Part shown: positions 35,232 through 57,742 of the stretch, in pieces | How the letters are laid out: every line of letters starts with the position of its first letter | Numbering within the stretch: position 1 is the stretch's first letter | From: Nitrospirota bacterium | Lineage (GTDB): Bacteria > Nitrospirota > Thermodesulfovibrionia > Thermodesulfovibrionales > Dissulfurispiraceae | Direction of reading: 5' to 3' | Assembly: GCA_004321915.1 (NCBI GenBank) | Contig: SCQE01000021.1 | Span: forward strand, 186,001-250,000 | Length of the DNA: 64,000 nt | Translations under genes and position numbers: made by a program | Notes under the pieces: model-generated | The model's input: the letters and a program-made list of their open reading frames with translations, nothing else | Database searches by the model: none | What the model was told of the DNA's origin: nothing

Positions 35232-36331
35232 TGCGAAATAAAGTTATACAACTCGACGCGCCGAATATAGGCGAGCGCGAAAAGGAGTTCTTGATAAGGG
35301 CCGTCGAGAGCGGGTATGTCTCAACCGCAGGACCGCTGGTGGCTGAATTCGAAGCGGCGTTTGCCGGACTTCTCGGAACGAAGAAGGCCGCTTCGACACA
35401 AAGCGGAACAGCGGCGCTTCATATGGCGCTTTACGAACTCGGTATAGGCAAAGGCGACGAGGTGATAGTGCCTGCAACCACCTTTGCCGCAACCGTTAAT
35501 CCCGTTCTTTATGTGGGGGCCACGCCTGTTATTGCGGATGTCGATGTCGAAACGTGGACACTCTCGCCCGAAAGCGTAGAATCAAACCTGACCGGGCGCA
35601 CAAAGGCCGTAATACCCGTGCATCTTTACGGTGTGCCGTGCCGCATGGATGAGATTATGGGGATAGCTGAAAAACATGGATTGAAGGTTGTAGAAGACGC
35701 CACTGAAAGCCTTTGTTCCAGATACAAAGGAGAGTTTACAGGCACTTTCGGAGATATGGGCTGTTTCAGTTTCAACGGGAACAAGACGATTACGACGGGC
35801 GGCGGCGGGATGGTGGTAAGCAGGGAAGAACAATGTATAGAGCATATAAAATTTTTGATAAATCAGGCGCGCGACGAGTCTGCGGGGTATTACCATCCTG
35901 AGGTCGGGTTTAATTATCGCATGACAAATCTCGAGGCTGCTTTGGGTCTGGCGCAGATGGGGAGACTCGAAGAGTTTGTCGCAAAAAAGCGGAGGTTCAA
36001 TAAAATTTACCGTGAGGAGCTTAGCGGCTGCGGATTTATAAGGTTTCAGCAAGGGCCGGCTTTTTCCGAAAGCTCATGGTGGCTGACCTGCATACTTTTC
36101 GAAAAAGATACGGACATCCCTGAGTTGCAGTTGCGTCTAAAATCCGAGGGTGTCCCTGCGCGAAGAGTTTTTATGCCGCTGGGAGAGATGCCGCCTTATG
36201 CTTCATTTGTCCGGAACCCTTGCGGCAATGCCGCTTTACTGTATGAAAGAGGGCTGTGCCTTCCGTCGTCGACCCTTAATTCGGATGATGACATCAGGCA
36301 TGTCTGCAAAATATTGCGGGAGCTTATCTGA
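35231..36331 (+). CDS. DegT/DnrJ/EryC1 aminotransferase, LegC-like
   Basis: 366 residues. PLP enzyme that in the legionaminic pathway aminates the 4-keto sugar. 'QSGTAALHMALYELGIGKGDEV', cut here as the family hallmark around residues 57-78, and 'FSFNGNKTITTGGGGMVV' (Schiff-base Lys ~182) are diagnostic; 'LDAPNIGEREKEFLIRAVES' resembles LegC-type N termini. I use ATG 35231, which overlaps the upstream stop by one base. It is followed directly by an acetyltransferase, NeuB and NeuC genes, the usual LegC setting. Confidence 0.85.
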   Translation: MRNKVIQLDAPNIGEREKEFLIRAVESGYVSTAGPLVAEFEAAFAGLLGTKKAASTQSGTAALHMALYELGIGKGDEVIVPATTFAATVNPVLYVGATPVIADVDVETWTLSPESVESNLTGRTKAVIPVHLYGVPCRMDEIMGIAEKHGLKVVEDATESLCSRYKGEFTGTFGDMGCFSFNGNKTITTGGGGMVVSREEQCIEHIKFLINQARDESAGYYHPEVGFNYRMTNLEAALGLAQMGRLEEFVAKKRRFNKIYREELSGCGFIRFQQGPAFSESSWWLTCILFEKDTDIPELQLRLKSEGVPARRVFMPLGEMPPYASFVRNPCGNAALLYERGLCLPSSTLNSDDDIRHVCKILRELI

Positions 36332-36952
36332 ATGAAAAGACAGGGACTGATACTAATAGGCGGCGGCGGACATTGTAAGGCCTGCATCGACGTTATAGAG
36401 GCGGAAAACAGGTTCAGGATAGTCGGGGTCGTGGACGTAAAGGGTAAGGTGGGGCGGAAGGTGCTTGATTATGAGATCATAGGCTACGACGACGACCTGC
36501 CGACACTTGCCGAAAGCTATGGGAATTTTCTTGTTACGATAGGCCAGATCAAAAGTCCTGCAGTGCGTATCAGCAGATTTGAATTTTTGAAGAGGGTGGG
36601 GGCGAAACTGCCGGTGATAATATCTCCCAACGCGTACGTGTCAAAACATGCGGTCATAGGTGAGGGCACGATTATAATGCACAGGGCTGTTATAAATGCA
36701 GGCGCAAGGGTAGGCCGCAATTGCATTATCAACACGGGGGCGATTATCGAGCATGACGCCATAATAGGGGACCACTGCCATGTATCGACATCTGCCGTAA
36801 TCAACGGCGGCGTTAGGGTGGGGGACAGGACCTTTTTCGGCAGTAATGCCGTGGCAAAAGAAGCGATAGAGATAGGAGAGGATTGCATAGTGGGTGCCGG
36901 AGTGAGTGTTATGAAATCCTTGAAGTCAGGCTCTCTATCAAAGAACAGGTAA
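36332..36952 (+). CDS. NeuD/PglD-family acetyltransferase (LegH-like)
   Basis: 206 residues. The N-terminal Rossmann part ('LILIGGGGHCKACIDVIEAE') precedes hexapeptide beta-helix repeats (~100-200) with 'GAIIEHDAIIGDHCHVS', whose His is the catalytic base in PglD. It would N-acetylate the amino group introduced by the neighbouring LegC-like enzyme. The start follows the upstream stop directly. Confidence 0.85.
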   Translation: MKRQGLILIGGGGHCKACIDVIEAENRFRIVGVVDVKGKVGRKVLDYEIIGYDDDLPTLAESYGNFLVTIGQIKSPAVRISRFEFLKRVGAKLPVIISPNAYVSKHAVIGEGTIIMHRAVINAGARVGRNCIINTGAIIEHDAIIGDHCHVSTSAVINGGVRVGDRTFFGSNAVAKEAIEIGEDCIVGAGVSVMKSLKSGSLSKNR

Positions 36953-36958
36953 GTATTC

Positions 36959-37963
36959 GTGCGCAGAACTTTTATCATAGCAGAGGCGGGCGTTAACCAT
37001 AACGGAAGTCTCGAAACTGCAAAGAGGATGATAGACGCTGCTTTTGACGCAGGGGTCGATGCGGTCAAATTTCAAACCTTTAAGACCGAGAAACTTGTTA
37101 GCAGAAACGCGCCTAAAGCTGAATACCAGAAGAAAGCGACCGAGGAACACGAGTCCCAGTTCGATATGATAAAAAAACTGGAGCTCGATGAAAAAGCGCA
37201 TGTGGAGTTGATTGGATATTGTCGGGCCAAAGGGGTGATGTTCCTCTCATCGCCGTTTGATCCGGAAAGCATAGATCTGCTGAACAGACTCGGGCTTGAA
37301 ATATTCAAGATACCGTCCGGCGAAATTACAAATCTCCCTTATCTCGAAAGGCTTGGTCTGTTGAAGAAAAGAATCATTCTTTCTACCGGGATGGCTGATA
37401 TGAGTGAGATAGGGGCGGCCCTTGATATTCTTATTTCAGCCGGGACCGCTAGGAAAGATATAACGCTTTTGCATTGCAACACGGAATATCCTACGCCTTT
37501 TGAGGACGTTAACCTTCTCGCAATGCTCAGCATAAAGGATGTTTTTAAGGTGGCGGTAGGTTATTCCGACCATACGACGGGCATAGAGGCATCGGTTGCA
37601 GCGGCAGCGCTCGGCGCAGCTGTGATCGAAAAACATTTTACCCTCGACAGGGAGATGAAAGGGCCCGACCATAAGGCTTCACTTGAACCGGAAGAACTGA
37701 AGGCCATGGTTGCGGCTGTGCGGAACATAGAGAAGGCCTTAGGAGACGGGGTCAAGAGACCGTCCCCGTCAGAGCTTAAAAATATGCCTGTTGCAAGGAA
37801 GAGTATAGTAGCTGCTAAGGACATAAAGCGCGGTGATGTCTTCAGCGAAGATAATATCGCCGCCAAAAGGCCGGGCACAGGCATAAGTCCTATGAGGTGG
37901 CATGAGGTCGTCGGCACAGAGGCCAAAAGGGATTTCAGACAGGAAGAGCAGATAGAGATATGA
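36959..37963 (+). CDS. Nonulosonic acid synthase, NeuB/LegI family
   Basis: 334 residues, GTG start. Condenses phosphoenolpyruvate with a 6-carbon diacetamido sugar to form the nine-carbon keto acid. 'FIIAEAGVNHNGSLETAKRMI' contains the N-terminal NeuB motif, 'VKFQTFKTEKLVS' and 'VGYSDHTTGIEASVAAAALG' are canonical, and the C-terminal SAF (antifreeze-like) domain is visible at ~280-334 ('KSIVAAKDIKRGDVFSEDNI'). The neighbouring LegG- and PtmE-like genes favour legionaminate over sialate. Confidence 0.9.
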   Translation: MRRTFIIAEAGVNHNGSLETAKRMIDAAFDAGVDAVKFQTFKTEKLVSRNAPKAEYQKKATEEHESQFDMIKKLELDEKAHVELIGYCRAKGVMFLSSPFDPESIDLLNRLGLEIFKIPSGEITNLPYLERLGLLKKRIILSTGMADMSEIGAALDILISAGTARKDITLLHCNTEYPTPFEDVNLLAMLSIKDVFKVAVGYSDHTTGIEASVAAAALGAAVIEKHFTLDREMKGPDHKASLEPEELKAMVAAVRNIEKALGDGVKRPSPSELKNMPVARKSIVAAKDIKRGDVFSEDNIAAKRPGTGISPMRWHEVVGTEAKRDFRQEEQIEI

Positions 37964-39126
37964 AACGCAAAATTTGTGTGGTGACGGGGACAAGGGCGGA
38001 GTACGGTATCCTCTACTGGATAATAAAGGGGATACACGAAGACCCTGATCTTGAGCTGCAGCTTGTCGTGACCGGCATGCATTTATCTGCGGAGTTCGGC
38101 CTAACGGTCAAGGTTATCGAGGGGGACGGGTTTCCGATCTCGGAGAGGGTTGAAATGCTGCTGTCCGCCGATACGGAAGCGGCTGTAGCTTCGTCCATGG
38201 GGATAGGCATGATCGGATTTGCGAAGGTGTATGAACGGCTCAAGCCTGATCTTATAACTGTTTTGGGGGACAGGTTCGAGATTTTTGCGGCTGTTGCTGC
38301 GGCCGTGCCGTTCAGGATCCCTATCGCACATATTCATGGCGGCGAGGCGACCCAAGGCGCGATGGACGAATGTTTTCGCCACGCGATTACAAAGATGAGC
38401 CACCTGCATTTTCCTGCTGCCGGGGTCTATGCAAAACGGATAATGCAGATGGGCGAGAACCCGGAGAATGTTTTTTGTTTTGGGGCACCGGGTCTCGATA
38501 ATATACGGAAATTGAAACTTTTGGAAAGGGACGAATTGTTCTCCGAACTGCAGTTGCCGGAGGACAAGACGATCGGTGTAGTCACATTTCACCCGGTCAC
38601 CCTTGAAAAGGACGCGGCGGAGATGCAGATGACGGCATTGCTCGGTGCGCTGCGGAATTTCGAGGATATTTATTGGGTCTTTACCATGCCGAATGCCGAT
38701 ACGGGCGGGCGGGCAATCGCATGGATGATGAATAATTTTGTGAAGGACTCCCCTGCCTCAGGGAAGGTGTTCGCCTCGCTCGGACAGGTCAGATATCTTT
38801 CTCTTTTGAAGCATGCCGCGTTGATGGTAGGGAACTCTTCGAGCGGAATAATAGAGGCCCCGTCTTTCGGGCTTCCGGTGGTCAATATAGGTGACAGGCA
38901 AAGAGGAAGGATGCGCGCTGCCAACGTTATAGATATCGAGGATTGCCGAAGCGATTTCATTGTCGCGGCTATTAGGAGAGCCGTGTCTTTAGATTTTAGG
39001 AATTTGCTGAAAGGCATTGTTAATCCCTATGGGGCCGGAGATGCTAGCGATTCAATAGTGTCAAAGATAAAAAGCGTTGGGCTGGACTCAGGGCTGATAA
39101 AAAAATCTTTTCAGGAGGCGGTTTGA
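37960..39126 (+). CDS. Hydrolysing UDP/GDP-sugar 2-epimerase, NeuC/LegG family
   Basis: 388 residues. Releases the nucleotide while inverting C2, giving the substrate of the NeuB enzyme. 'VVTGTRAEYGILYWII', 'VTGMHLSAEFG', 'TVLGDRFEI', 'IAHIHGGEAT' and 'MVGNSSSGIIEAPSFGLPVVNIG' match the family throughout. It overlaps neuB by four bases (ATGA). The order neuB-neuC-ptmE equals that of the Campylobacter legionaminate genes as I recall them. Confidence 0.9.
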   Translation: MKRKICVVTGTRAEYGILYWIIKGIHEDPDLELQLVVTGMHLSAEFGLTVKVIEGDGFPISERVEMLLSADTEAAVASSMGIGMIGFAKVYERLKPDLITVLGDRFEIFAAVAAAVPFRIPIAHIHGGEATQGAMDECFRHAITKMSHLHFPAAGVYAKRIMQMGENPENVFCFGAPGLDNIRKLKLLERDELFSELQLPEDKTIGVVTFHPVTLEKDAAEMQMTALLGALRNFEDIYWVFTMPNADTGGRAIAWMMNNFVKDSPASGKVFASLGQVRYLSLLKHAALMVGNSSSGIIEAPSFGLPVVNIGDRQRGRMRAANVIDIEDCRSDFIVAAIRRAVSLDFRNLLKGIVNPYGAGDASDSIVSKIKSVGLDSGLIKKSFQEAV

Positions 39127-39129
39127 ATT

Positions 39130-40209
39130 ATGGAAAGAGAAAAATTAAATAGCCTTCTCGTCTCCCCGGATAAGACAATAAAACAGGCTATGCAGATACT
39201 TACTCTTACATCAGAAAAGATTTTGTTCGTGGTCGACTCGAAGGAAAAACTTCTCGGAACGCTGACGGACGGCGACATCAGATCCGGTCTGATAAACGGT
39301 CTGGATTTCTCGGAAACTATAGATAAGGTGATGAACATCGAGTTTATTTCACTTGGCATTGATGAGCCGGGTATGCGCGAAAAGGCTAGAACTCGTATGG
39401 TTGAGAATAAGATTGAGCAGGTGCCGGTTATTGATGAAAAAGGCAAAATAATAGATATTTTTCTATGGACAGACATACTCGGAGAGAAAAGAGTATCAAA
39501 GCCCGCTAAACTCCTCGGGAACCAGGTGGTGATTATGGCAGGGGGAAAAGGCACTAGGCTAGACCCTTTTACAAAGATTCTTCCCAAGCCTTTGATACCG
39601 GTCGGAAATCGGGCCATAATAGAACTTATAATGGAGAAGTTTTACTTTTCAGGCTTTCACAGATTTATATACACACTCAATTATAAAAAAGAGTATATCA
39701 AGCTTTTTTTAAAGGAGAACTCGCTTCCTTACGACATAAGCTGGATAGACGAGGATGAGTTTTTGGGTACGGCCGGAGGGCTTTCTTTGCTTCGTGATAA
39801 GATTGCCGATACTTTTTTTGTCACGAACTGTGATTCTCTTATAAGCGTGGATTTTAACGATGTGCTTAATTGGCACAAGAACCATAAGGCCATGATGACG
39901 GTTGTAGGCTGCCACAATGAAGTAAGGATACCTTTCGGCGTCCTTCAGTTCTCAAACGGCAAACTCGAAAGGATAATGGAGAAACCTGTTCATGATGTGA
40001 TAATCAACACCGGCGTTTATGTGATAGAGCCGCATGTGCTCTCGATGATTCCTGAAGGACAGCATATGGACATGAATCAACTTATAGACAAAGCTGCGCA
40101 GGAAGGGGTTGTGGCGGTCTACCCTATTTATGACGGATGGCTTGATATAGGGCAGTGGGAAGAATACCGGAAGAGCCTTGAAAAGATGGGCGATATAAAG
40201 GAGTATTGA
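39130..40209 (+). CDS. CBS-domain sugar-1-phosphate nucleotidyltransferase, PtmE-like
   Basis: 359 residues. Two CBS motifs (~5-120, 'LGTLTDGDIRSGLINGLDFS', 'VPVIDEKGKIIDIFLWTDIL') are fused to a nucleotidyltransferase (~130-359) with 'VIMAGGKGTRLDPFTKILPKP', 'FLGTAGGLSLL' and 'TNCDSLI'. PtmE of Campylobacter has this architecture and makes GDP-glucosamine for the GDP-route to legionaminic acid; the same role is inferred here. Confidence 0.85.
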   Translation: MEREKLNSLLVSPDKTIKQAMQILTLTSEKILFVVDSKEKLLGTLTDGDIRSGLINGLDFSETIDKVMNIEFISLGIDEPGMREKARTRMVENKIEQVPVIDEKGKIIDIFLWTDILGEKRVSKPAKLLGNQVVIMAGGKGTRLDPFTKILPKPLIPVGNRAIIELIMEKFYFSGFHRFIYTLNYKKEYIKLFLKENSLPYDISWIDEDEFLGTAGGLSLLRDKIADTFFVTNCDSLISVDFNDVLNWHKNHKAMMTVVGCHNEVRIPFGVLQFSNGKLERIMEKPVHDVIINTGVYVIEPHVLSMIPEGQHMDMNQLIDKAAQEGVVAVYPIYDGWLDIGQWEEYRKSLEKMGDIKEY

Positions 40210-40213
40210 GGAT

Positions 40214-41386
40214 ATGATCGACAAATTCGGATTTCAGCTGAACACTATTATGTTCTACGGCATAGGCCATTCAATGACGTTGGGAGATTTTCTAAAACAA
40301 AAGGGACACGAAAAGGTGCTGTTCCTTGCCGATGAAGGGGTTGTAAAGGGCGCTGATTATTTCGGCAGGGTCAAGGAGACGGTCCGGTCATGTGTTGACA
40401 AGCTGCATGTAATTGCCTTGCGGGGCAATGAGGAGCCCGACTATGATTATTTGGATGCGGTCGCCGCCGAAGTCCGTTCGCTCGGCAAAATAGATGCGGT
40501 TGTCGGAATAGGGGGCGGAAGCTGTCTTGATATGATGAAGGCCGTTGCAGTATTGATGACCAATCCCGGCAGAGGAATCGATTACAGGGGATTCGATAAG
40601 CTTCAAAATCCCGGAGTGCCTACAATAGCTATTCCTACCACTGCAGGCACAGGCAGCGAGGTAACTATAAATGCCGTGTTTACGGACAAAAAAGAGATGA
40701 AGAAGCTTGGCATCAACGGTCTTTATATGAATGCCACTTACGCCATACTCGATGCCGAATGGACATTGAGCTGTCCTGTGCATGTTGCGGTCTCCTCAGG
40801 CATGGATGCCATGACCCACGCCCTTGAAAGTTTTATGTGCAGGAAAGCTAACGGCCTTACAAGGGTATTCAGCAAAGAGGCGTTCAGGTTGCTTTACGGG
40901 GCGTTGCCGTCGCTTATAGACGATCCCGGGAACAAGACGAAGCGACAGGAGCTGCTTTTAGGCAGTTATCTTGCCGGAGCGGCGCTTTTCAATTCCGGTT
41001 CCGGCATAGCCGGAGCTCTTTCTTATCCCATAGGCGTTCATTTTAAAGTTCCTCATGGTATTGGAGGTGCAATATTTCTTTCGTCGGTCGTAGAGTTTAA
41101 TGTCAGCAAGGGATATTACGATTATTCCGAGCTGCTCGATCTGGTTGAGCCGTGCTCTGGGCTTTCGGCAAAGGCAAAGGCTGAAAAATTTTCGGTCTTA
41201 ATGAAGGACCTTTCGATCAAGCTCGGCGTGCCCGATTATCTTGATCAGTGGGGCATAACAAAAGATAACGTTCAGGAAACAGCGAAACTCATGCTGCCGC
41301 TGCAGGCCGCTTTTGACCAAAACCCCGTATCTTTTTCAGCCGAGAAGGATGCGCCGGAAATGCTTTTCAGGCATATCAGACACTAA
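40214..41386 (+). CDS. Iron-containing (type III) alcohol dehydrogenase, KdnB-like candidate
   Basis: 390 residues. NAD-binding 'VVGIGGGSCLDMMKAVAV' and 'PTTAGTGSEVT', and the metal site 'SGMDAMTHALESF' with a later His in 'VPHGIGGAIF', define the family. In Shewanella KdnB of this family oxidises C8 of Kdo for later amination by KdnA; a KdnA-like gene lies at 45123, so oxidation of an ulosonic acid side chain is a reasonable inference. Other sugar-alcohol oxidations remain possible. Confidence 0.75.
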   Translation: MIDKFGFQLNTIMFYGIGHSMTLGDFLKQKGHEKVLFLADEGVVKGADYFGRVKETVRSCVDKLHVIALRGNEEPDYDYLDAVAAEVRSLGKIDAVVGIGGGSCLDMMKAVAVLMTNPGRGIDYRGFDKLQNPGVPTIAIPTTAGTGSEVTINAVFTDKKEMKKLGINGLYMNATYAILDAEWTLSCPVHVAVSSGMDAMTHALESFMCRKANGLTRVFSKEAFRLLYGALPSLIDDPGNKTKRQELLLGSYLAGAALFNSGSGIAGALSYPIGVHFKVPHGIGGAIFLSSVVEFNVSKGYYDYSELLDLVEPCSGLSAKAKAEKFSVLMKDLSIKLGVPDYLDQWGITKDNVQETAKLMLPLQAAFDQNPVSFSAEKDAPEMLFRHIRH

Positions 41387-41409
41387 TCCTAAGACAGGAG
41401 AGACGATAA

Positions 41410-42090
41410 ATGAGCGAAAACAGATACACGAAAATCCATTACAACGAGAGTTTAAGGCCTTATACGGAATATCCCGTTAAACTCTGCAACCACCTTGCGG
41501 ATAGGTATTTTAAAAAAAGGTCGGGCAACCTTCTCGATATCTGTTGCGGCAGGGGGGAGCATGTCGAAATTTTTCAGAAAATAGGATTTAAGGCTTACGG
41601 TATAGACCGAGACTCGGTCGGGAAAGATAAGGGGTTGAATATTTCTGTGGCGGATGTAGAGGCCGATATGTTTCCGTTTGAAGACAATTTCTTTGACGCA
41701 ATTATGATGAAGTCCGCTATCGAACATATACGGAACATAGACCATCTGATGAAAGAGATATACAGGGTGTTGAAGCCCGGGTGCCCGGTGGTGGTTACGA
41801 CCTGCGACTGGAAGAGGAACTATAAGGTCTTCTACGACGACTATACGCATAAGACACCGTTCACAAAGGCGTCTATGGAGGATATGTTCAGGATGTTCGA
41901 TTTTAAAAATAGCAGGGTCGAGTTTTTTTATCACCTGCCGTTTACATGGAAGTGTGATTTCAACAAACAGATTGCACGGATGTTGTCTTTGATCCCTCTG
42001 AAATACACGCAGACTACAGAGCTTACGGAATACAAGAAGCTGATAAGATTTTCCAAGGAAGTCCAGCTTCTCGGATACGCAGAGAAATAG
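41410..42090 (+). CDS. Class I SAM-dependent methyltransferase
   Basis: 226 residues. 'NLLDICCGRGEHVEIFQKIG' is motif I of a SAM methyltransferase, 'YGIDRD' supplies the acidic ribose contact, and 'DNFFDAIMMKSAIEHI' and 'EIYRVLKPGCPVVVTT' are the later motifs of the Methyltransf_11 type. GGAG lies before ATG 41410. Substrate unknown, likely a glycan precursor or its lipid-linked form. Confidence 0.85.
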   Translation: MSENRYTKIHYNESLRPYTEYPVKLCNHLADRYFKKRSGNLLDICCGRGEHVEIFQKIGFKAYGIDRDSVGKDKGLNISVADVEADMFPFEDNFFDAIMMKSAIEHIRNIDHLMKEIYRVLKPGCPVVVTTCDWKRNYKVFYDDYTHKTPFTKASMEDMFRMFDFKNSRVEFFYHLPFTWKCDFNKQIARMLSLIPLKYTQTTELTEYKKLIRFSKEVQLLGYAEK

Positions 42091-42107
42091 CCGACAGGGA
42101 TGGTTTA

Positions 42108-44090
42108 ATGAAAAAGAAGACAAAAATATATTTGGCAGACCTCGTGCATAATTTTCTCGGCGGCGGCTCTTACATGTTTCCGCTGAATATAGGCTTTATC
42201 GCTTCTTATGCGAAAAAGGCTTTTGGCGATGAGGCAGAGATTACCCTGTTCAAGTATCCTGACATGCTTGTAAAACGTTTAAAAGAAGCCCCCCCTGATA
42301 TATTGGGACTGAGCAGCTATACATGGAACACCCACCTTAACAGTCAGGTTTCCCGGCTTATGAAATCCTTAAACCCTGCTGCTATGGTTGTTTATGGCGG
42401 CCCGAACGTCAACCATACGGACGGTGGTTATAGAGATTTTTTCAGTAAGAATCCCTGCGTTGATTTTTATGTGATCAATGAGGGCGAGGTCGGATTTTCG
42501 AATCTCTTAAGCCGTTATTTCGAGTCCGGACAGGACTTGCGCGCGATGAAGGGTGCAGGACCTGTTGACGGCTGTGTCTTTTTTGACGGAGCCCCGGTGG
42601 CCGGCGCGAGGCTGCCAAGAATGCAGAGCCTCGATGAAATACCTTCCCCTTATCTCAGCGGGATTCTGGATGAGTTCTTTAAATTCGACCTCATCCCTAT
42701 AGTTGAGACCAACAGGGGATGTCCCTATGCCTGTACGTATTGCGCACAGGGGATCGGCTCGCAATATAAGGTGAAATTTTTCGACATAGAGCGCGTTCTT
42801 TCCGAACTCGATTACATTGCCGGTCATGTGAATAATACGAACCTTCTATGCTTTGCCGACGCCAATTTCGGCATAGCCCAGAGGGATATCAGGATCGCGG
42901 AGCATATAAGGAACCTTCAACAGACAAAAGGCTACCCGAGGCGGTGCACCATAAACTGGATAAAGACAAGGCAGAGCATAGAGCTTGCAAAGATAATGGG
43001 ACAGTCTACATATCTGGTCTCGTCCCTTCAATCGCTCGACCCGATCGTACTGAAGAACATAAAGAGGCATAACATAGACTATTCGCACTTCAAGGAGATT
43101 GTGGACCAGACCAATGAGATGGGCGGGGTGTCCGGGACCGAGATAATACTTGCGCTTCCGGGAGAAACAAAGGAAAGCCATCTTAACAGTCTCAGAAAAC
43201 TCTTCGACTGGGATGTAAGCTATATAATATGTTACAACTGCCTTCTTATAGACGGAAGCGAACTGACACTGCCTGAACAGCGCGGGGAGTATAAGCTCAG
43301 GACGAGGTTCAGGCTTGTTGACAGCGCCTTCGGCCATTATGACAGTATCAGCTCCTTTGAATGCGAGGAAGGCATCCGCTCGACCTCGGCAATGTCTGAG
43401 GATGAAATACTCTTTTTCAGGCCCGTTCATTGGCTTATTCAGTTCTTCTGGAATTACAGATGTTACTTTGAGCTGCTAAAGTTTATGAACGGCCACGGCA
43501 TCAATCCCGTGGATTTTATAGTGGCACTTATAAACAACGCCGCATCGGCGCCCGCCTCGGTCAAGGGCATATTTCAGGATTTCGGCCGGGAGGCTGTCGA
43601 GGAATGGTTCGAATCTCCGGAAGCGCTCTGCAAATATTACGAGATCCCTGAGAACTTCGCGAAACTCGAGAGCGGCGAAGTGGGCAAAATGAACGGAAAA
43701 TACACATGGAGGGTCATCCTTGAATGCAAGAATGATTTCGACCGTTTTGTTAAGGATACCGCATCAGGCATGCTGCCTGACCACAGCGAGGCCATAGCGG
43801 ATATCGTTCTTTATGCGTCGAACGCGTTACTTGATTTTAGTCAGAACTTTAATTTTACCGCCAAGCAGCTGAAGTTCTCGCACGATGTTATTGCATGGAA
43901 GGAAAGCAAATACAAAAGTGGCCTGAGCAAGAAAGAGTGTGCTTATTCGTTTGTCTTTCCGGACGAGAAAAAGGGCGCGCTTGAAGTGCTTTTGAACCAG
44001 TACAAGCATTCTAACAAAAATGTAACCATGCGCAAGATGACCGAGCATATGAGAATCACCGACATCTATTATGATGTGAGTCCTGTTTGA
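42108..44090 (+). CDS. B12-binding-type radical SAM protein
   Basis: 660 residues. A Rossmann-like B12-binding region (~1-165, 'PPDILGLSSYTWN', 'VVYGGPNVNHTDGG', 'VINEGEVGF') without an obvious DxHxxG motif precedes the radical SAM core. 'NRGCPYACTYC' (~201-211) carries the CxxxCxxC cluster ligands, and 'SGTEIILALPGETKE' is the typical beta-strand 6 region. The C-terminal ~230 residues are helical. Members methylate or rearrange unactivated carbons; in this context a sugar carbon is the likely target. Confidence 0.85.
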   Translation: MKKKTKIYLADLVHNFLGGGSYMFPLNIGFIASYAKKAFGDEAEITLFKYPDMLVKRLKEAPPDILGLSSYTWNTHLNSQVSRLMKSLNPAAMVVYGGPNVNHTDGGYRDFFSKNPCVDFYVINEGEVGFSNLLSRYFESGQDLRAMKGAGPVDGCVFFDGAPVAGARLPRMQSLDEIPSPYLSGILDEFFKFDLIPIVETNRGCPYACTYCAQGIGSQYKVKFFDIERVLSELDYIAGHVNNTNLLCFADANFGIAQRDIRIAEHIRNLQQTKGYPRRCTINWIKTRQSIELAKIMGQSTYLVSSLQSLDPIVLKNIKRHNIDYSHFKEIVDQTNEMGGVSGTEIILALPGETKESHLNSLRKLFDWDVSYIICYNCLLIDGSELTLPEQRGEYKLRTRFRLVDSAFGHYDSISSFECEEGIRSTSAMSEDEILFFRPVHWLIQFFWNYRCYFELLKFMNGHGINPVDFIVALINNAASAPASVKGIFQDFGREAVEEWFESPEALCKYYEIPENFAKLESGEVGKMNGKYTWRVILECKNDFDRFVKDTASGMLPDHSEAIADIVLYASNALLDFSQNFNFTAKQLKFSHDVIAWKESKYKSGLSKKECAYSFVFPDEKKGALEVLLNQYKHSNKNVTMRKMTEHMRITDIYYDVSPV

Positions 44091-44114
44091 AGGTGCACGC
44101 CGGATAGATATAAT

Positions 44115-45107
44115 ATGAGCGCGACCCCGCAAAGAATAACTGAAGAGCGTGTAGGCTACGGCGATGGTGTTCTTGCCAAGCTATTCGGCGATAGATACAC
44201 ACAGTACCGCGAGCTCTGGAACAAGGCCTGCAAAAGGGAGACGATCACGGAATTCCCGCTTTACCTGCAGTTTGAGTTCACCCCCTTCTGCAACCTTTCC
44301 TGCGTGTCCTGCATTCACGGCATTGAGGAGTTGAAGTCCTCTTATACTGCCGTGGATCTTTCTATGGATTACGAAAAGATAATACTTGAAGCCGAGCGGT
44401 TCGGGTGTCCGTCTATCTCGTTCCACAACAACAACGAGCCGTTGCTCGTAAGGGATTTGGAAGATAAAATAGGTTTTGCGAAACGGCATGGGTTTATAGA
44501 CCTTATCCTCACCACAAACGCGACTCTTCTTAGCGAAGAAAGGGCAGACCGCCTGCTTGAGTCCGGACTTACAAAGATCAATTTCAGCATAGACGCATAC
44601 AGCGAAGAAGCGTACAGGCTCACGAGAAGAAAAGGAGACTTCCGTCAGGTGCTGGCAAACATAGAGGGATTTCTTGAACTGAAGAAAAAGCGCGGCTATG
44701 AGCTTCCTATTACAAGGGTTACGTTCCTGATAAACAGGAATAACTATGCCGAGACCGGGCAGTTCAGGGCGTTCTGGAAAGACCGCGTAGACCTTGTCGA
44801 GTTTCAGAATTTTCAGGCGCTTGACGGTTATACGGAGGCCCTGTGCCCTCCGGGGTATGAGAGGTATGAAGGTTTTGAGTGCACATATCCGTGGCAGCAG
44901 GTTGTTGTCAGGTCCAACGGCGATGTTCTGCCATGCTGCTCTTTTTACGGGGCGGATATTGTTTTGGGGAATATTGCCCAAAACTCGATATATGAATTGT
45001 GGCACGGAGAGAAGATTAAGGCTTTGAGGGAGTCTCTTTCACACAAGTCATATGCGCACGCCTCCTGCAGGCGGTGCGCAAGAACTTTTTATAAAAAAAG
45101 CGAATAA
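44115..45107 (+). CDS. Radical SAM/SPASM protein
   Basis: 330 residues. 'EFTPFCNLSCVSCIHG' (CxxxCxxC ~58-65), 'SISFHNNNEPLL' in place of the GGE motif, and 'LILTTNATLL'. The C terminus has SPASM-like cysteines ('CTYPWQQVVVRSNGDVLPCC', 'CRRCARTFY'). A paralogue lies at 53667. Its GGE motif is replaced by NNE, as in several SPASM enzymes acting on sugars or peptides. Reaction unknown. Confidence 0.85.
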   Translation: MSATPQRITEERVGYGDGVLAKLFGDRYTQYRELWNKACKRETITEFPLYLQFEFTPFCNLSCVSCIHGIEELKSSYTAVDLSMDYEKIILEAERFGCPSISFHNNNEPLLVRDLEDKIGFAKRHGFIDLILTTNATLLSEERADRLLESGLTKINFSIDAYSEEAYRLTRRKGDFRQVLANIEGFLELKKKRGYELPITRVTFLINRNNYAETGQFRAFWKDRVDLVEFQNFQALDGYTEALCPPGYERYEGFECTYPWQQVVVRSNGDVLPCCSFYGADIVLGNIAQNSIYELWHGEKIKALRESLSHKSYAHASCRRCARTFYKKSE

Positions 45108-45122
45108 GGAGCGAGAAAGAAA

Positions 45123-46292
45123 ATGCCCGGTTTTGAGGTCTTTGGAAAAGAGGAGCAGCAGGCGATAAATGATCTGTTCGAAGCGAACGGCGGTATACTT
45201 TTTGCGCACGGCTTTGACGCGATGCGGAAGGGTGTTTACCGTGTAAGGGAATTCGAAGCTGCCTTCGCTAAGAGAATGGGAACGGGTTATGCTCAGGCTG
45301 TGTCGTCCGGTTCCACTGCGCTGAAGGTCGGGCTCAAGGCCTTGGGCGTGCATAAGGGTGACGAGGTTATAACGCAGTCGTTTACTTTTGTGGCGACTGT
45401 TGAGGCGATACTCGAGGTCGGCGCTACACCGGTTATTGTCGATATTGACGAAACCCTCAATATGTGCCCTGTCAGCCTTGAGAAGACGATAACTGAAAAG
45501 ACAAGGGCCGTTATCCCTGTGCATATGATGGGCTCTCCCGCTGCAATGGATGAGATTATGGCGGTTGCAAAAAAATATAACCTGTCAGTGCTTGAAGACA
45601 CGGCGCAGGGCTGCGGCGGCACATATAAAGGAAAGACGCTTGGCACGATCGGGCATGCCGGGGCGTTCAGTCTCGATGCCGGGAAAACCATTCAAACAGG
45701 CGAGGGCGGCATGGTGATAACCTCCCGGGAAGATATTTATACAAGGGCGCGGGCATATCACGACCATGGTCATGAATACAGCAAGAGCATGGGTAGGGGC
45801 GAGGAAGGCGCGTTGCTGACCGGATTCAACTACAGGATGACCGAACTGCAGGGCGCAATAGGGCTGGTGCAGTTGTCCAAGCTCGATATGATCCTCGATA
45901 ATCAGAGGAAGAACAAGGCAAAGATGATGCAGGGGTTGGGGCAGCTGCCGTTCGGCTTCAGAAAAGAACTCGATCCTGCCGGAGAACTTGGCGATACGAT
46001 CGTGTTTTTCCTCGATTCGAAAGAGCAGGCCGGTGAATTTGTGTCCAAGATGAAGGCTGCCGGTCTCGGGACCAAGAACCTTCCAGATGCCATAAGGTGG
46101 CACTTTGCAAGGCATTGGGGCCACATGTTCATGGAGCATGGTTTTTATGCAGACACATGGCAGCAGGAGTGGCAGAAATCCGCTGACTTGCTCGAAAGGG
46201 CGGTCGCCCTGCCCGTTATGGTGAATATGACGGATGAGAGGATTGAAGAAGTTACCCGGAAGATACTTGAAGTAGCGGAAAAGGTAAAATGA
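45123..46292 (+). CDS. DegT-family aminotransferase, KdnA-like
   Basis: 389 residues. The start 'MPGFEVFGKEEQQAINDLFE' and 'FSLDAGKTIQTGEGGMVIT' (PLP Lys ~192) closely resemble KdnA, the PLP enzyme that aminates C8 of 8-keto-Kdo in Shewanella (recalled from memory), and less so the LegC-like enzyme at 35231. 'HMMGSPAAMDEI' and 'FNYRMTELQGAIGLVQL' are shared with the family. With the Fe-alcohol dehydrogenase at 40214 it could install an amino group on an ulosonic acid. The next gene, a CMP-sugar synthetase, overlaps by four bases. Confidence 0.8.
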   Translation: MPGFEVFGKEEQQAINDLFEANGGILFAHGFDAMRKGVYRVREFEAAFAKRMGTGYAQAVSSGSTALKVGLKALGVHKGDEVITQSFTFVATVEAILEVGATPVIVDIDETLNMCPVSLEKTITEKTRAVIPVHMMGSPAAMDEIMAVAKKYNLSVLEDTAQGCGGTYKGKTLGTIGHAGAFSLDAGKTIQTGEGGMVITSREDIYTRARAYHDHGHEYSKSMGRGEEGALLTGFNYRMTELQGAIGLVQLSKLDMILDNQRKNKAKMMQGLGQLPFGFRKELDPAGELGDTIVFFLDSKEQAGEFVSKMKAAGLGTKNLPDAIRWHFARHWGHMFMEHGFYADTWQQEWQKSADLLERAVALPVMVNMTDERIEEVTRKILEVAEKVK

Positions 46293-46975
46293 GAATAACG
46301 GCGTTTATCCCCGCGAGGGGCGGTTCAAAGGGCATTCCCAAGAAAAACCTCGCTTTGCTGAACGGGAAGCCTCTGATTCAGTACACGATAGAGGCGGCAA
46401 AAAAAAGCAGGTATATTAACGATATTTTTGTATCGAGCGATGATTCTGAAATTATCGGGTTTTGCGAATCAGTCGGGGTTTCGGTGCCTTACCGCAGGCC
46501 GGAAGAGCTTGCAACGGATTCGTCATCCATAGTTGATACTCTGATGCATGCTTTGGACTGGATGGGAAAACGGAAAGAATTGCCCTATGTCATAATGCTT
46601 CTGCAGCCGACATCTCCTTTAAGGACAGCTAATAATATTGATGAAGCCGTTGAATTGTTCGTATCGGATGGTGCCGAAAGCCTTATTAGTGTACACCGCA
46701 TGGTTGAACACCCCTATGAATGTTTGAAGGTTGCGGCTGGTGGATGGGAGTATCTGGTACGTCCTGAAAAAGAAGCCTTTAGAAGGCAGGACTACAACGA
46801 AGATTTTTATTACATAAACGGTGCTATTTATATAGTGAAAACAGACTTCTTTATAAGGGAAAAGAAATTTGTTCTTGAGAACAGAACAAAATTATACATT
46901 ATGCCTCCTGAAAAAGGAGTTGATGTTGATGATGCTCTTGGATTAAAAAAGGCGGAATGCTATTTTGGATTATGA
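46289..46975 (+). CDS. CMP-nonulosonate cytidylyltransferase, NeuA/LegF family
   Basis: 228 residues. Activates the nine-carbon acid as CMP-sugar. 'FIPARGGSKGIPKKNLALLNG' (residues ~6-26) holds the nucleotide-binding signature, 'MLLQPTSPLRTANNI' and 'GVDVDDALGL' the catalytic and metal-binding Asp motifs. It overlaps the KdnA-like gene, so its acceptor may be the aminated product. A diverged paralogue is at 54665. Confidence 0.9.
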   Translation: MRITAFIPARGGSKGIPKKNLALLNGKPLIQYTIEAAKKSRYINDIFVSSDDSEIIGFCESVGVSVPYRRPEELATDSSSIVDTLMHALDWMGKRKELPYVIMLLQPTSPLRTANNIDEAVELFVSDGAESLISVHRMVEHPYECLKVAAGGWEYLVRPEKEAFRRQDYNEDFYYINGAIYIVKTDFFIREKKFVLENRTKLYIMPPEKGVDVDDALGLKKAECYFGL

Positions 46976-47005: not shown

Positions 47006-47623
47006 ATGATAGTTATAATTGATTGTGGTATAGGCAATGTCGGTTCTGTTGCGCATGCTCTTGAGTATCTGGGCGGAAAATATTTTATTTCAGGTAATAG
47101 AAAGGACTTTGAGAGTGCGGACGCTCTTGTGCTTCCGGGAGTTGGCGCTTTTCCTGCAGGCATGAAGAATCTGAGAGAGTTCGGGCTGGTAGATGAAATG
47201 GAGAAACAGGTCTTAATAAATAAGAAGCCTTTTATGGGGATATGCCTTGGTATGCAATTGCTTGCTTCCGATTCAACTGAGGGGGGATTTAATACAGGGC
47301 TGGGTTGGATTGAAGGGCATGTAATTTCTTTAAGTCCGGAAGGGAATCTACGCGTTCCTCATGTGGGGTGGAATGATGTCAAATTCGACCGGTCTTCGTG
47401 TTTTTCTCATAACATTGACGAAAACGCTCATTTTTATTTTGACCACAGTTTTCATCTTCAATGCGATAAAAGTTTGGCTATAGCTACATGTGAGTATGGC
47501 GGCACATTGGTTGCCGCCATACAAAGAGAAAATATTTTCGCGACACAATTTCATCCTGAGAAAAGCCAGAGGAACGGCTTGAAAGTTCTAAGAAATTTTT
47601 TGAATTTTGTGGGAAAGCATTAA
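47006..47623 (+). CDS. HisH-type glutamine amidotransferase (HisH2)
   Basis: 205 residues. Class I glutaminase triad: the nucleophile Cys in 'FMGICLGMQLLAS' and the His/Glu in 'TQFHPEKSQ'. 'IIDCGIGNVGSVAHALEYLG' is the family N terminus. In O-antigen clusters HisH2 with HisF2 feeds ammonia to an N-acetyl-sugar amidotransferase; the next three genes are HisF2 and two such enzymes, which argues against a role in histidine synthesis. Base composition is clearly AT-richer than upstream genes. Confidence 0.85.
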   Translation: MIVIIDCGIGNVGSVAHALEYLGGKYFISGNRKDFESADALVLPGVGAFPAGMKNLREFGLVDEMEKQVLINKKPFMGICLGMQLLASDSTEGGFNTGLGWIEGHVISLSPEGNLRVPHVGWNDVKFDRSSCFSHNIDENAHFYFDHSFHLQCDKSLAIATCEYGGTLVAAIQRENIFATQFHPEKSQRNGLKVLRNFLNFVGKH

Positions 47624-47635
47624 TGGTAACAGGAC

Positions 47636-48505
47636 ATGCTTAAAGCAAGAATTGTCGCAATATTAATTGTCAAAGGCGAAATAGTAGTGCAAAGTATCAA
47701 CTTTAAACAATTTTTGCCTGTAGGTTCTCCTTCCATAGCAGTAGATTACCTTAACAGTTGGGGTGTTGATGAAATTGCTATTATCGATATCGATGCGACA
47801 CCCGGAAAAAGAAATCCTCGCTTTGACCATATCTCAGAATATTCTAAATATTGCCAAGTCCCTCTTTCGGTGGGAGGAGGGATTAAGAATGTTGATGATA
47901 TCAAGAGAGCGGTCCATATTGGTGCAGACAAAGTAGTTATAAATACGGCAGCCGTAAAATATCCGCGACTCATAAGCGAAAGCGCAGGCTTATTCGGCAA
48001 TCAGTGCATTATAGTTTCGATGGATGTTAGAAAAGTGTCTAAAAAAAAATATGAAGTGTATATTAACTCTGGAAACGTTTCCACAGGCTACTCTCCTGCA
48101 GATTTAGCCAAAAGATCCGAAGAGCTTGGCGCCGGTGAAATTTTGCTCACATCTATCGATCGTGACGGAACAAAGAAGGGATACGATTTAGAGTTGATAG
48201 GACAAGTGTTGAATGTTGTAAATATCCCTGTGATTGCTTGCGGAGGCGTTGGCCATCCGCAACATTTTCTGGATGCGATCAATATGGGAGTTTCGGCTGT
48301 AGCGGCTGCAAATTTCTATCACTATTCCGAACATAGTGTTACTACTATCAAAAGCTACCTGAAAGCTGCCGGCGCTAATATTCGTCTTGACTCTTATGCA
48401 ACTTATAATGAGTTTGCGTTTGATCGTCTTGGCCGACCGCGAAAAAAAGATGACATCTTTCTCGAGAAACTTCATGTCGAATACATCCCCGAAGAAATCA
48501 TATGA
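47636..48505 (+). CDS. HisF-type cyclase-like subunit (HisF2) lacking the first catalytic Asp
   Basis: 289 residues. A (beta/alpha)8 barrel with two phosphate-binding half-barrels ('VGGGIKNVDDIKRAVHIGAD', 'IACGGVGHPQHFLDAI'). The canonical 'PCLDV' at the N terminus, whose Asp is a catalytic residue of HisF, reads 'VAILIV' here, so that Asp is lost, as in HisF2/WbuZ-type proteins. 'SMDVRK' and 'TSIDRDGTKKGYD' are kept. About 35 extra C-terminal residues ('FDRLGRPRKKDDIF') are unusual. It would conduct ammonia from HisH2 to the amidotransferase. Confidence 0.85.
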   Translation: MLKARIVAILIVKGEIVVQSINFKQFLPVGSPSIAVDYLNSWGVDEIAIIDIDATPGKRNPRFDHISEYSKYCQVPLSVGGGIKNVDDIKRAVHIGADKVVINTAAVKYPRLISESAGLFGNQCIIVSMDVRKVSKKKYEVYINSGNVSTGYSPADLAKRSEELGAGEILLTSIDRDGTKKGYDLELIGQVLNVVNIPVIACGGVGHPQHFLDAINMGVSAVAAANFYHYSEHSVTTIKSYLKAAGANIRLDSYATYNEFAFDRLGRPRKKDDIFLEKLHVEYIPEEII

Positions 48506-49800
48506 AATACTGTAAACGCTGTCTTTATCCTGCCAATCATCCGCTAAATATTACGTTTGACGGTTATGGCGTGTGCAGCGGATGCAGAGTACATGAGGAA
48601 AAAGATGTACTTGATTGGGATGAGCGAAAAGAAAAACTGGAAAAGATATTCAGCGAATTCAGATCAGGGACACAAAAGACATATGATTGCATTATTCCGG
48701 TCAGTGGGGCGCGCGATTCATATTTCATTGTGTATATGGTGAAAAATATTTTCAAAATGCATCCGTTACTTGTCACCTATAACAAACATTACAATACAAA
48801 AATAGGGATCAGAAATCTTGCGTATTTGCAGACAATTTTCGGATGCGACCTTATTAGCTGCACTGTGAGCCCTGAGAGAGTCAAGCGAATCACACGTGAA
48901 AGCTTGAGACGTAAAGGCAGCATCTACTGGCATTGCCTTGCAGGATCCACGGTTTTTCCTGTGCAAACCGCTGTTAAACTTAAAATTCCTCTTATCGTAT
49001 GGGGCGCTCATCAGGGCTGTGATCAGACAGGCATGTTTTCTCATCTGGATGAAGTTGAGATGACAAGAAAATACCGGAAAGAACATGATCTGATGGGGAT
49101 GGAAGCGGAAGACTTTATTCGTGACAGCGATGTTGTGGCCATTGAAGACATGAAACAATATATTTATCCTCATAACAAGGAACTGGAGAGCGTGGGAGTC
49201 AGGGGTATTTATCTGAGCAACTATATACGCTGGGACTCCAAGGCCCAGCACGAGTTGATGATTGAAAAATATGGTTACGAAACCATGCTTCAGCAGCGTA
49301 CTTTTGATACATACAATGATGTGGATTGTTTTCATTATTCCGGTATTCATGACTATATAAAATTTTTGAAGTGGGGATATGGTAAGGTGACGGACCATGC
49401 TTCCAGAGAAGTCCGTTTGAAAAGAATGACACGTGAAGAAGGCATTTCCATGGTCCGTAAGTTCCAGAATATATATCCAAAGGATTTGTCGATTTTCCTT
49501 GAATGGCTCGGCATGAGTGAAAATGAATTTTTTGGATATATTGATAAGCACCGGGATCCGCGCATATGGCAGAAAAATGATTGCGCGGACTGGGAGCTTA
49601 AGGATTCAATTGTCAATCATGCCGGAGATGAAGGTGTCGATGACGTCCGGCTGCAACGCAAAGAAGGATGCGAATTTTTGCTTGTTCCTTCTAAAGAACC
49701 GAATGAGGTTGAAGACAATCACGTGCTTATTGGCAGGGCCTGTGTTGACAACGGACATCTTCCTGAAGTTATAAAAAGGTATCCTGATGAAATATTGTAA
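48502..49800 (+). CDS. N-acetyl sugar amidotransferase 1, variant PP-loop
   Basis: 432 residues. The N-terminal zinc finger 'MKYCKRCLYPANHP' with 'CSGCR' is followed by an ATP pyrophosphatase domain. The PP-loop is 'PVSGARDSYFIVYMV', where most relatives have SGGKDS or SGGRDS, so Gly is replaced by Ala. The family (TIGR03573-like, WbpG/WbuX) converts acetamido to acetamidino groups with ammonia from HisH2/HisF2. The ~60-residue C-terminal tail is absent from its neighbour. It overlaps HisF2 by four bases. Confidence 0.8.
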   Translation: MKYCKRCLYPANHPLNITFDGYGVCSGCRVHEEKDVLDWDERKEKLEKIFSEFRSGTQKTYDCIIPVSGARDSYFIVYMVKNIFKMHPLLVTYNKHYNTKIGIRNLAYLQTIFGCDLISCTVSPERVKRITRESLRRKGSIYWHCLAGSTVFPVQTAVKLKIPLIVWGAHQGCDQTGMFSHLDEVEMTRKYRKEHDLMGMEAEDFIRDSDVVAIEDMKQYIYPHNKELESVGVRGIYLSNYIRWDSKAQHELMIEKYGYETMLQQRTFDTYNDVDCFHYSGIHDYIKFLKWGYGKVTDHASREVRLKRMTREEGISMVRKFQNIYPKDLSIFLEWLGMSENEFFGYIDKHRDPRIWQKNDCADWELKDSIVNHAGDEGVDDVRLQRKEGCEFLLVPSKEPNEVEDNHVLIGRACVDNGHLPEVIKRYPDEIL

Positions 49801-50902
49801 AAAGTGCGTTCAGCCCGATACAAGACCGAGAATCTATTTTAACGAGGACGGAGTTTGTGGGGCTTGTCTGTGGAAGGAGGAAAAAAAGACCATTGATTGG
49901 GAAGCGCGCAGACAGGAACTGCAGGGCATTGCCGATTGGGCAAAAAAGGAAGCAAAAAAACGCGGCACATATGATTGTGTTTTGGGAGTAAGCGGAGGAA
50001 AGGACACGACTTTCACATCTTTATATGCTCGGGACAGATTGGGATTGAATTGCCTGCTGGTCAATGCATGGCCTGAACAGATGACAGAAATAGGCCGGTA
50101 TAATATCGAGAATTTATGCAAGCTGGGATTTGACATCATTAATATCAAAACAAACCCGAGGGTCATGAGAAAAATTATAAGGGACGATTTTTTCAAGCGT
50201 GGCAATTTGAATATCTCTACCGAATACACTATTTGGTCAAGTGCCTATAGGGTTGCAATGGAGCATAAAGTTCCCTTGATTATACAGGGGGAAAATGAGG
50301 CGTTGACGCTGGGGGCCAGCGAAGGACAGACAAGAGATGGCGAGGCTACTCAGGTATACAAAAACAATACACTCTCAGGGGTCAATGCATTCCAGAGGTA
50401 TGCTGACTGTGAAGGTGTATCAAGGAAAGACCTTTTTTTATACAACTTCCCTGATCCCGGATTGCTTGATAGGATAGGTATTAGGGCTTATTATCTTGAA
50501 TTCTATATTAACGAGTGGGACCAGGTCGGCAATGCAGAATTTTCAATAAAGCATGGCCTGAAAATACGGGAGGATGATCTGTCGGAACTGGGGTCCGTCC
50601 AGAAATTCTGTGCTTTGGACTCAGACCTCTGGCTGGTAAATCAACTTATCAAGTATTACAAGCTCGGGTTTGGTTATGCCACTGACGAGGCCTGTTACGA
50701 GATACGGGAAGGCCGTATTACTAGGGAGGAAGGGTTTGAGCTTGTCAGAAAATATGATGGCAAATGCGGTGAAAAATATATAAAGAAGGCGTGTGATTAC
50801 ATCGGAATAACAACCGACATATTCTGGCGGGAAATTGAAAAGTGGCGCGGACCGATGTGGCGTAGAGATTCAGGAGGCAGTTGGACTTTGAAAAATGATT
50901 AA
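49787..50902 (+). CDS. N-acetyl sugar amidotransferase 2, canonical PP-loop
   Basis: 371 residues. 'MKYCKKCVQPDTRP' with 'CGACLW' forms the N-terminal zinc site, and 'LGVSGGKDTTFTSLYARDR' the intact PP-loop. 'IIQGENEALTLG' and 'ATDEACYEIREGRITREEG' are further family segments. It overlaps amidotransferase 1 by 14 bases. Two such enzymes with a single HisH2/HisF2 pair suggest either two amidination sites on one sugar or a heteromeric enzyme. Confidence 0.85.
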   Translation: MKYCKKCVQPDTRPRIYFNEDGVCGACLWKEEKKTIDWEARRQELQGIADWAKKEAKKRGTYDCVLGVSGGKDTTFTSLYARDRLGLNCLLVNAWPEQMTEIGRYNIENLCKLGFDIINIKTNPRVMRKIIRDDFFKRGNLNISTEYTIWSSAYRVAMEHKVPLIIQGENEALTLGASEGQTRDGEATQVYKNNTLSGVNAFQRYADCEGVSRKDLFLYNFPDPGLLDRIGIRAYYLEFYINEWDQVGNAEFSIKHGLKIREDDLSELGSVQKFCALDSDLWLVNQLIKYYKLGFGYATDEACYEIREGRITREEGFELVRKYDGKCGEKYIKKACDYIGITTDIFWREIEKWRGPMWRRDSGGSWTLKND

Positions 50903-54662: not shown

Positions 54663-54664
54663 AA

Positions 54665-55399: not shown

Positions 55400-55402
55400 A
55401 GT

Positions 55403-57735: not shown

Positions 57736-57742
57736 ACCTGAT

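Follow-up and report, generated by a model that had tools for sequence, protein, structure and literature searches.

The window analyzed here is a stretch of 64,000 nucleotides from a Nitrospirota genome (GenBank assembly GCA_004321915.1, contig SCQE01000021.1, positions 186,001 to 250,000 of the forward strand). Between positions 35228 and 50902 it carries a nonulosonic acid gene run in the order LegC-like aminotransferase, NeuD, NeuB, NeuC, PtmE-like protein, type III alcohol dehydrogenase (ADH), methyltransferase, two radical S-adenosylmethionine (SAM) proteins, KdnA-like aminotransferase, NeuA, HisH, HisF-like protein, WbuX, and WbuX (Table 1). Of special interest are the ADH and the KdnA-like aminotransferase, which recall the KdnB/KdnA pair that converts 3-deoxy-D-manno-octulosonic acid (Kdo) to 8-amino-Kdo (Kdo8N). 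The genes present, the family and clade to which the aminotransferase belongs, its linkage to NeuB and NeuA, and the co-occurrence of an oxidizing partner make it probable that the two enzymes oxidize and then aminate a finished nonulosonic acid at C8, which would then be activated as its cytidine monophosphate (CMP) derivative.

A KdnA relative linked to nonulosonate genes

The aminotransferase is a relative of KdnA by sequence, fold, and tree. Among solved structures, KdnA of Shewanella oneidensis (PDB 5k8b) was its best match, aligning from residue 1 at 287 bits; the second-best structure scored 185. This alignment covers the common start MPGFE and the lysine region, confirming the KdnA-like start and pyridoxal phosphate (PLP) region that a preliminary description of the window had recognized in the gene at 45123. 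In an AlphaFold model (predicted local distance difference test [pLDDT] score of 94), KdnA was the top fold match (template modeling [TM] score of 0.94, root mean square deviation of 1.9, 39% identity), followed by 7b0m. A tree of 31 DegT proteins placed the window protein and Shewanella KdnA in a 15-member group with 100/100 support; the 16 other proteins were ArnB, WecE, perosamine synthase, two LegC proteins, 7b0m, and ten DegT proteins from the same genome. The LegC-like aminotransferase of the cluster was separate from the KdnA clade in this tree. The phylogeny that the preliminary description had proposed as a check thus joins the aminotransferase to KdnA and sets it apart from 3- and 4-amino-sugar enzymes.

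Across the KdnA-family alignment, K188, D159, S183, and N236 were unchanged in 86/86 rows. The window protein has in common with KdnA its DegT clade, the fold, the MPGFE N terminus, the catalytic lysine, and a WH..W motif near the C terminus. It differs in its C-terminal loop, TKNLPDAxxWHFA where KdnA has CFYWYVNNWHY, and in being linked to NeuB and NeuA instead of KdsB. Both homologs lie near the pair, as had been described: the NeuB gene (518 bits) is 5′ of it, and the last codons of the KdnA-like gene are overlapped by the gene for a NeuA/PseF-type cytidylyltransferase.

To place this linkage in context, 85 loci were compared: 80 from named genomes, four from the phylum of the window, and the window itself. 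Shares among these loci should not be read as population frequencies, since the scan of named genomes started from four nonulosonate-linked proteins as seeds and its best 80 of 409 relatives were taken. The window protein fell inside a 31-member clade with 98/94 support in a careful 78-row tree, which was obtained by dropping 17 unlabeled rows and one long outgroup row from a first tree and adding seven rows. NeuB was present at 27 of the 31 clade loci and at none of the 54 loci outside, whereas KdsB scoring at least 80 bits was found at 0/31 clade loci and 26/54 others; WaaA, KdsA, and KdsD were likewise absent at that threshold (0/31). NeuA lay within 300 bp of the KdnA-like gene at 11/31 clade loci and 0/54 others, and KdsB lay within the same distance at 0/31 and 8/54, so that the neighboring CMP-sugar synthetase switches along with the sugar. 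A “NulO” label assigned to the loci changed 4 times on the tree, compared to 23 to 24 times after shuffling; the label took priority at five loci that also had weak KdsB-like matches of 48 to 53 bits (L034, L045, L051, L053, and L056), and L024 received it from NeuC and PtmE, without NeuB.

Three residues follow the clade boundary. F19, D291, and A323 (the alanine in the loop TKNLPDAxxWHFA) were each present in 31/31 clade rows, while the rows outside mostly had Leu (48/55), Thr (47/55), and Asn (50/55), respectively. Besides the phylum of the window, clade members came from ten named bacterial phyla and from the archaeon Methanolobus psychrotolerans. Kdo-linked loci L029 to L031 were placed just outside the clade, and plasmid records yielded no relative at an E value of ≤1e-70.

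Five loci from Actinomycetota (L034, L040, L045, L051, and L053) have the order KdnB, KdnA-like gene, short gene, NeuB. The short gene at L034 encodes a family 2 glycosyltransferase, and at L034 and L051 a cytidylyltransferase follows NeuB with an inositol-monophosphatase-type gene adjoining. None of the five has NeuC or LegC nearby, and they perhaps make another sugar acid, one in which the C9 hydroxyl is free. The L040 record is titled Bifidobacterium breve, a doubtful label, as its KdnA-like protein nests with those of other Actinomycetota metagenome-assembled genomes.

A sister group was found among 395 sampled genomes of the phylum to which the L020 genome belongs, 86 of which had a KdnA-like match at an E value of ≤1e-80. 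Ten stretches around such matches were taken and nine annotated. Five of the annotated stretches came from a numerous small-genome group, and all five contained a NeuA-like cytidylyltransferase. The order cytidylyltransferase, ADH, KdnA-like gene could be read directly in L155, L156, and L164, with no NeuB beside it; in L157 and L158, one or both of the other cassette genes were lost to overlapping frames during open reading frame picking. The KdnA-like proteins of L155, L156, and L164 were sister to the nonulosonate clade (98/82). Of ten such genomes checked, nine encoded NeuB at another location, and KdsB was over its cut-off in all of them. Gene content suggests that the small-genome group represents green sulfur bacteria. 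The KdnA proteins of L159 to L162 were nearer that of Shewanella, with KdsB and KdnB beside them in L160, L161, and L162 and not in L159.

Candidate oxidizing partners of the KdnA-like lineage

A transaminase acting on a sugar alcohol position needs a partner that supplies the carbonyl, and a candidate for this role was near the KdnA-like gene at 29/31 clade loci. A type III ADH lay within 6 kb at 23/31 loci and within 300 bp at 18/31. Six of the eight remaining loci instead had a PhyH-type 2-oxoglutarate oxygenase (PF05721, 84 to 132 bits) within 1 kb, five of these within 300 bp; PhyH occupied that place in 0/54 loci outside the clade. No partner was seen at L019, and the contig of L032 starts 131 bp before the KdnA-like gene. 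The PhyH loci come from Pelagibacteraceae (five loci) and from the window's phylum (one genome); EvdO2 and SnoK are among the solved structures closest to the L010 protein. The iron-binding pattern of the PhyH proteins is kept, and the invariant columns include H114, D116, H202, and R213, which we take to form that pattern. That partners are exchanged is in keeping with a shared task, the conversion of an alcohol to the carbonyl required by the transaminase.

The ADHs of the clade are of two types, a KdnB-subfamily type from other phyla (e.g., L020, L021, and L023) and the type found in the window. The window ADH carries both iron-ADH domains (PF00465, 121 bits; PF25137, 107 bits), so the type III ADH reported upstream of the aminotransferase is indeed there, but its assignment to the KdnB family did not stand. 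Its best solved relatives were methanol dehydrogenase (160 bits) and FucO (148 bits), compared to 105 bits for KdnB, the Kdo 8-oxidase (PDB 5k8c), and these two enzymes were also the nearest folds to its AlphaFold model (pLDDT, 93), in which KdnB ranked 43rd. KdnB belongs to subfamily FeADH3/cd08184, according to the available part of PMC5125639, which also gives four metal ligands (Asp, His, His, and His) for this ADH family. At the third ligand position the window ADH has Gly, and all 13 members of its ADH group have Gly, Ala, or Ser; the remaining 46 of 59 ADH rows, KdnB included, keep His. Ligand positions were located with what we take to be the FucO residue numbers. Score, fold, and metal ligand together rule out the window ADH as a KdnB, with which it shares the type III fold and the proposed role of oxidizing partner to a KdnA.

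Loss of ligands goes further elsewhere. Two are gone in the L011 ADH, and in the L041 ADH (8731), a member of the window group, all four positions are changed (G, R, G, and Q), although the gene still adjoins a KdnA-like gene. The altered site of the window enzyme may operate with three ligands or may support metal-free catalysis; maleylacetate reductases are reported to act without metal in the part of PMC5125639 available. Asp occupied the coenzyme-deciding position 40 (D40) in 14/14 aligned ADHs, which by the account in the same source indicates NAD as the coenzyme.

The position of the window ADH in the ADH tree is weak, since the outside rows were FucO and methanol dehydrogenase only and long branches were joined; ADHs shorter than 300 amino acids or encoded on the opposite strand were left out of that tree. 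Within the window's phylum, window-type ADH was detected at an E value of ≤1e-50 in 4 of 295 genomes, three of which also have a KdnA-like gene (the window's own, G060, and G294); the fourth, G231, was a weak match (5e-52) lacking the gene. Another phylum member, G284, is the fourth of its genomes with a nonulosonate-linked KdnA and has PhyH instead, and G230, from the same genus as the window, has neither gene. On balance we lean, somewhat less firmly than for the window itself, toward a KdnA-derived lineage dedicated to C8 amination of nonulosonic acids, whose partner has been swapped among three enzymes that are unrelated or only distantly so: a KdnB-type ADH, a second type of ADH whose metal site is altered, and an O2-dependent PhyH-type dioxygenase.

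Predicted pathway and alternatives

The surrounding genes constrain the sugar on which such a pair could act. NeuB-, NeuC-, and NeuD-type models all scored over their curated cut-offs, a trait of legionaminic acid clusters. As in legionaminic and di-N-acetylbacillosamine-type clusters, LegC-like, NeuD, NeuC, NeuB, PtmE-like, and NeuA genes form one run (PtmE being the name we presume to apply to the protein at 39130); the window differs in its added ADH and KdnA-like genes and in having a PglF-type 4,6-dehydratase (PF02719, 376 bits), encoded on the same contig 12 kb beyond the window end, instead of LegB. The cluster sugar is likely a legionaminic-type, 9-deoxy acid made via a diacetylbacillosamine-like route.

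Table 1. Features of the nonulosonate region of the window and related features at other loci
Feature	Coordinates	Strand	Model match or remark
LegC/PglE-type 4-aminotransferase (first DegT of cluster; predicted source of C7 amine)	35228..36331	+	TIGR04181, 393 bits (cut-off 420)
NeuD/PglD-type sugar N-acetyltransferase	36332..36952	+	TIGR03570, 191 bits (cut-off 161)
NeuB-type nonulosonic acid synthase	36959..37963	+	TIGR03569, 518 bits (cut-off 400); PseI model below cut-off
NeuC/LegG-type 2-epimerase	37960..39126	+	TIGR03568, 470 bits (cut-off 236)
PtmE-like CBS/nucleotidyltransferase	39130..40209	+	Nucleotidyltransferase models, none over cut-off
Type III (iron-type) ADH, 390 amino acids	40214..41386	+	Fe-ADH and ADH_Fe_C domains
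Methyltransferase, KedN5-like B12 radical SAM, SPASM radical SAM	41410-45107		KedN5-like, 195 bits (cut-off 700); between ADH and aminotransferase
KdnA-like PLP aminotransferase, DegT family, 389 amino acids	45123..46292	+	
NeuA/PseF-type cytidylyltransferase	46289..46975	+	PseF model, 143 bits (cut-off 205.7)
HisH, HisF-like (WbuZ-like), and two WbuX N-acetyl sugar amidotransferases in a row	47006..50902	+	
SPASM radical SAM, NeuA-like cytidylyltransferase, epimerase-like, B12 radical SAM, short-chain dehydrogenase/reductase	53667-58480		Second run
PhyH gene replacing ADH	L010:1814-2575		
PhyH gene replacing ADH	L035:9243-9998		
PhyH gene replacing ADH	L049:8466-9194		
PhyH gene replacing ADH	L072:9256-10011		
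PhyH gene replacing ADH	L077:9208-9996		
PhyH gene replacing ADH	L096:9247-10011		
Cytidylyltransferase, ADH, KdnA-like gene	L155:7502-10606		Sister group
Cytidylyltransferase, ADH, KdnA-like gene	L156:7563-10646		Sister group
Cytidylyltransferase, ADH, KdnA-like gene	L164:9402-12432		Sister group

Downstream of NeuA, HisH and both WbuX proteins (330 and 329 bits) were over their cut-offs and WbuZ (264 bits) was below its cut-off of 299.7. This run likely converts acetamido to acetamidino groups, so that the sugar may carry one or two of the latter. The three genes between ADH and aminotransferase might serve to attach methyl groups to carbons of the sugar, and the second run further downstream perhaps serves a further unusual sugar.

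In the pathway we propose, a legionaminic-type acid would be built first, with amino groups at C5 and C7, a methyl at C9, and NeuB making the nine-carbon chain. In the hexose precursor, the oxygen that will end up on C8 is part of the ring, and the C8 hydroxyl is free only after NeuB; oxidation at C8 could for this reason occur only after the NeuB step. The ADH would then act on the free nonulosonic acid, oxidizing its C8 hydroxyl to a C8 ketone in an NAD-linked reaction, the KdnA-like PLP enzyme would transaminate this ketone to give a 5,7,8-triamino-3,5,7,8,9-pentadeoxy nonulosonic acid, and the adjoining NeuA would form the CMP derivative of the aminated acid. Substrate, C8 position, step order, NAD use, and product are what we infer here from the genes. 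The scheme amounts to the KdnB/KdnA route of Kdo8N shifted to a C9 acid, with an inner carbon in place of a terminal one as the site, the predicted substrate of the aminotransferase being a C8 ketone of that acid and not the terminal C8 of Kdo. This reading of the pair as a transplanted system is well supported for the aminotransferase and the class of sugar and less so for the exact carbon. The preliminary description had allowed amination at C8 or C9; C8 is retained as the likely site because the cluster looks legionaminic-type with a C9 methyl, leaving the C8 hydroxyl as the sole one on the side chain, while the 9-deoxy sugar genes speak against C9. Its tetraamino product was dropped, as no gene supports a fourth amination.

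Several observations weigh against this pathway. KdnB and KdnA use the primary C8 alcohol of Kdo; acting on a secondary alcohol would be a genuine departure in substrate. The window ADH lies outside the KdnB subfamily, with only the type III superfamily in common, and because it has lost one metal ligand its catalysis could differ. The ADH and KdnA-like genes are also not adjacent in the window, being separated by three genes, although the nearest relative, L018, keeps the order ADH, KdnA-like gene, NeuA with the first two adjacent. Finally, the best LegB match (TIGR04180) in the whole genome scored 147 bits against a cut-off of 475 and the LegC-like protein fell below its own cut-off, so the 9-deoxy assignment leans on the PglF-type route.

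An alternative is that the pair makes ordinary Kdo8N for the core of the lipopolysaccharide (LPS) and that its location in a nonulosonate cluster is incidental. KdnA is the closest characterized relative, KdsA and KdsB are over their cut-offs on other contigs of this 99.6% complete genome, and there is only one KdnA-like gene in it at an E value of ≤1e-65. Even so, we regard this as unlikely, given that the protein sits in the NeuB-linked clade (27/31) and not among KdsB-linked KdnAs, that F19, D291, and A323 are invariant there and rare outside, and that the gene is overlapped by NeuA, not KdsB. A comparably small chance is given to amination at C9 of a sialic-acid-type sugar whose C9 hydroxyl is free. 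C9 would be the position truly corresponding to the terminal C8 in Kdo, four actinomycetotal loci have NeuB with no LegC or NeuC nearby (L034, L040, L045, and L051, with a cytidylyltransferase in L034 and L051), and a PhyH-type oxygenase could in principle oxidize a C9 methyl. In the window, however, LegC/PglE-type, PglD/NeuD, and PglF-type genes lead to a 6-deoxy hexose and thus a 9-methyl acid, whose methyl group a dehydrogenase cannot oxidize; this argument is tempered by the LegC and LegB scores.

It is less probable still that the aminotransferase acts on a nucleotide hexose, giving a 3- or 4-amino sugar, with the ADH an unrelated neighbor. The DegT family mostly uses nucleotide sugars, three genes separate the two in the window, and more sugar genes lie downstream. 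These points are opposed by the 100/100 grouping with KdnA apart from ArnB, WecE, perosamine synthase, and LegC, by the ADH lying within 300 bp at 18/31 clade loci, and by the co-occurrence of ADH and KdnA-like genes within the phylum.

The product predicted by the C8 pathway is of a known kind. The O-polysaccharide of the LPS of Flexibacter (Tenacibaculum) maritimus contains a 5,7-diamido-8-amino-3,5,7,8,9-pentadeoxy nonulosonic acid, as stated in the available part of a review (PMC3210612). “Novel,” as the triamino acid had been called, is therefore too strong a word. The two would have in common amino groups at C5, C7, and C8 and a methyl at C9; configuration and acyl groups may differ, and the window amidotransferases suggest an acetamidino group. 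No gene assignment for an 8-amino nonulosonic acid was found in the open-license PMC literature, and the available portion of the T. maritimum genome paper (PMC5561996) does not describe the genes for this sugar. Aliivibrio Leg clusters hold a “second aminotransferase” suspected to be relevant, its nature not being stated in the accessible part of PMC7371886.

The genes in the window are candidates for the synthesis of an 8-amino nonulosonic acid, a sugar from the LPS of one fish pathogen. They point to a single transaminase lineage that switches between two sugar acids, with the CMP-sugar synthetase changing to match, and they flag genomes in which this sugar may be sought, including those of marine Pelagibacteraceae and a methanogen. 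An added amine, free or acylated, would alter surface charge and recognition by sialic-acid-binding proteins. If the reading of a lineage dedicated to C8 amination is correct, it would fill in the so far missing pathway by which 8-amino nonulosonic acids are made, and sialic-acid-like sugars with this kind of positive charge would be common.

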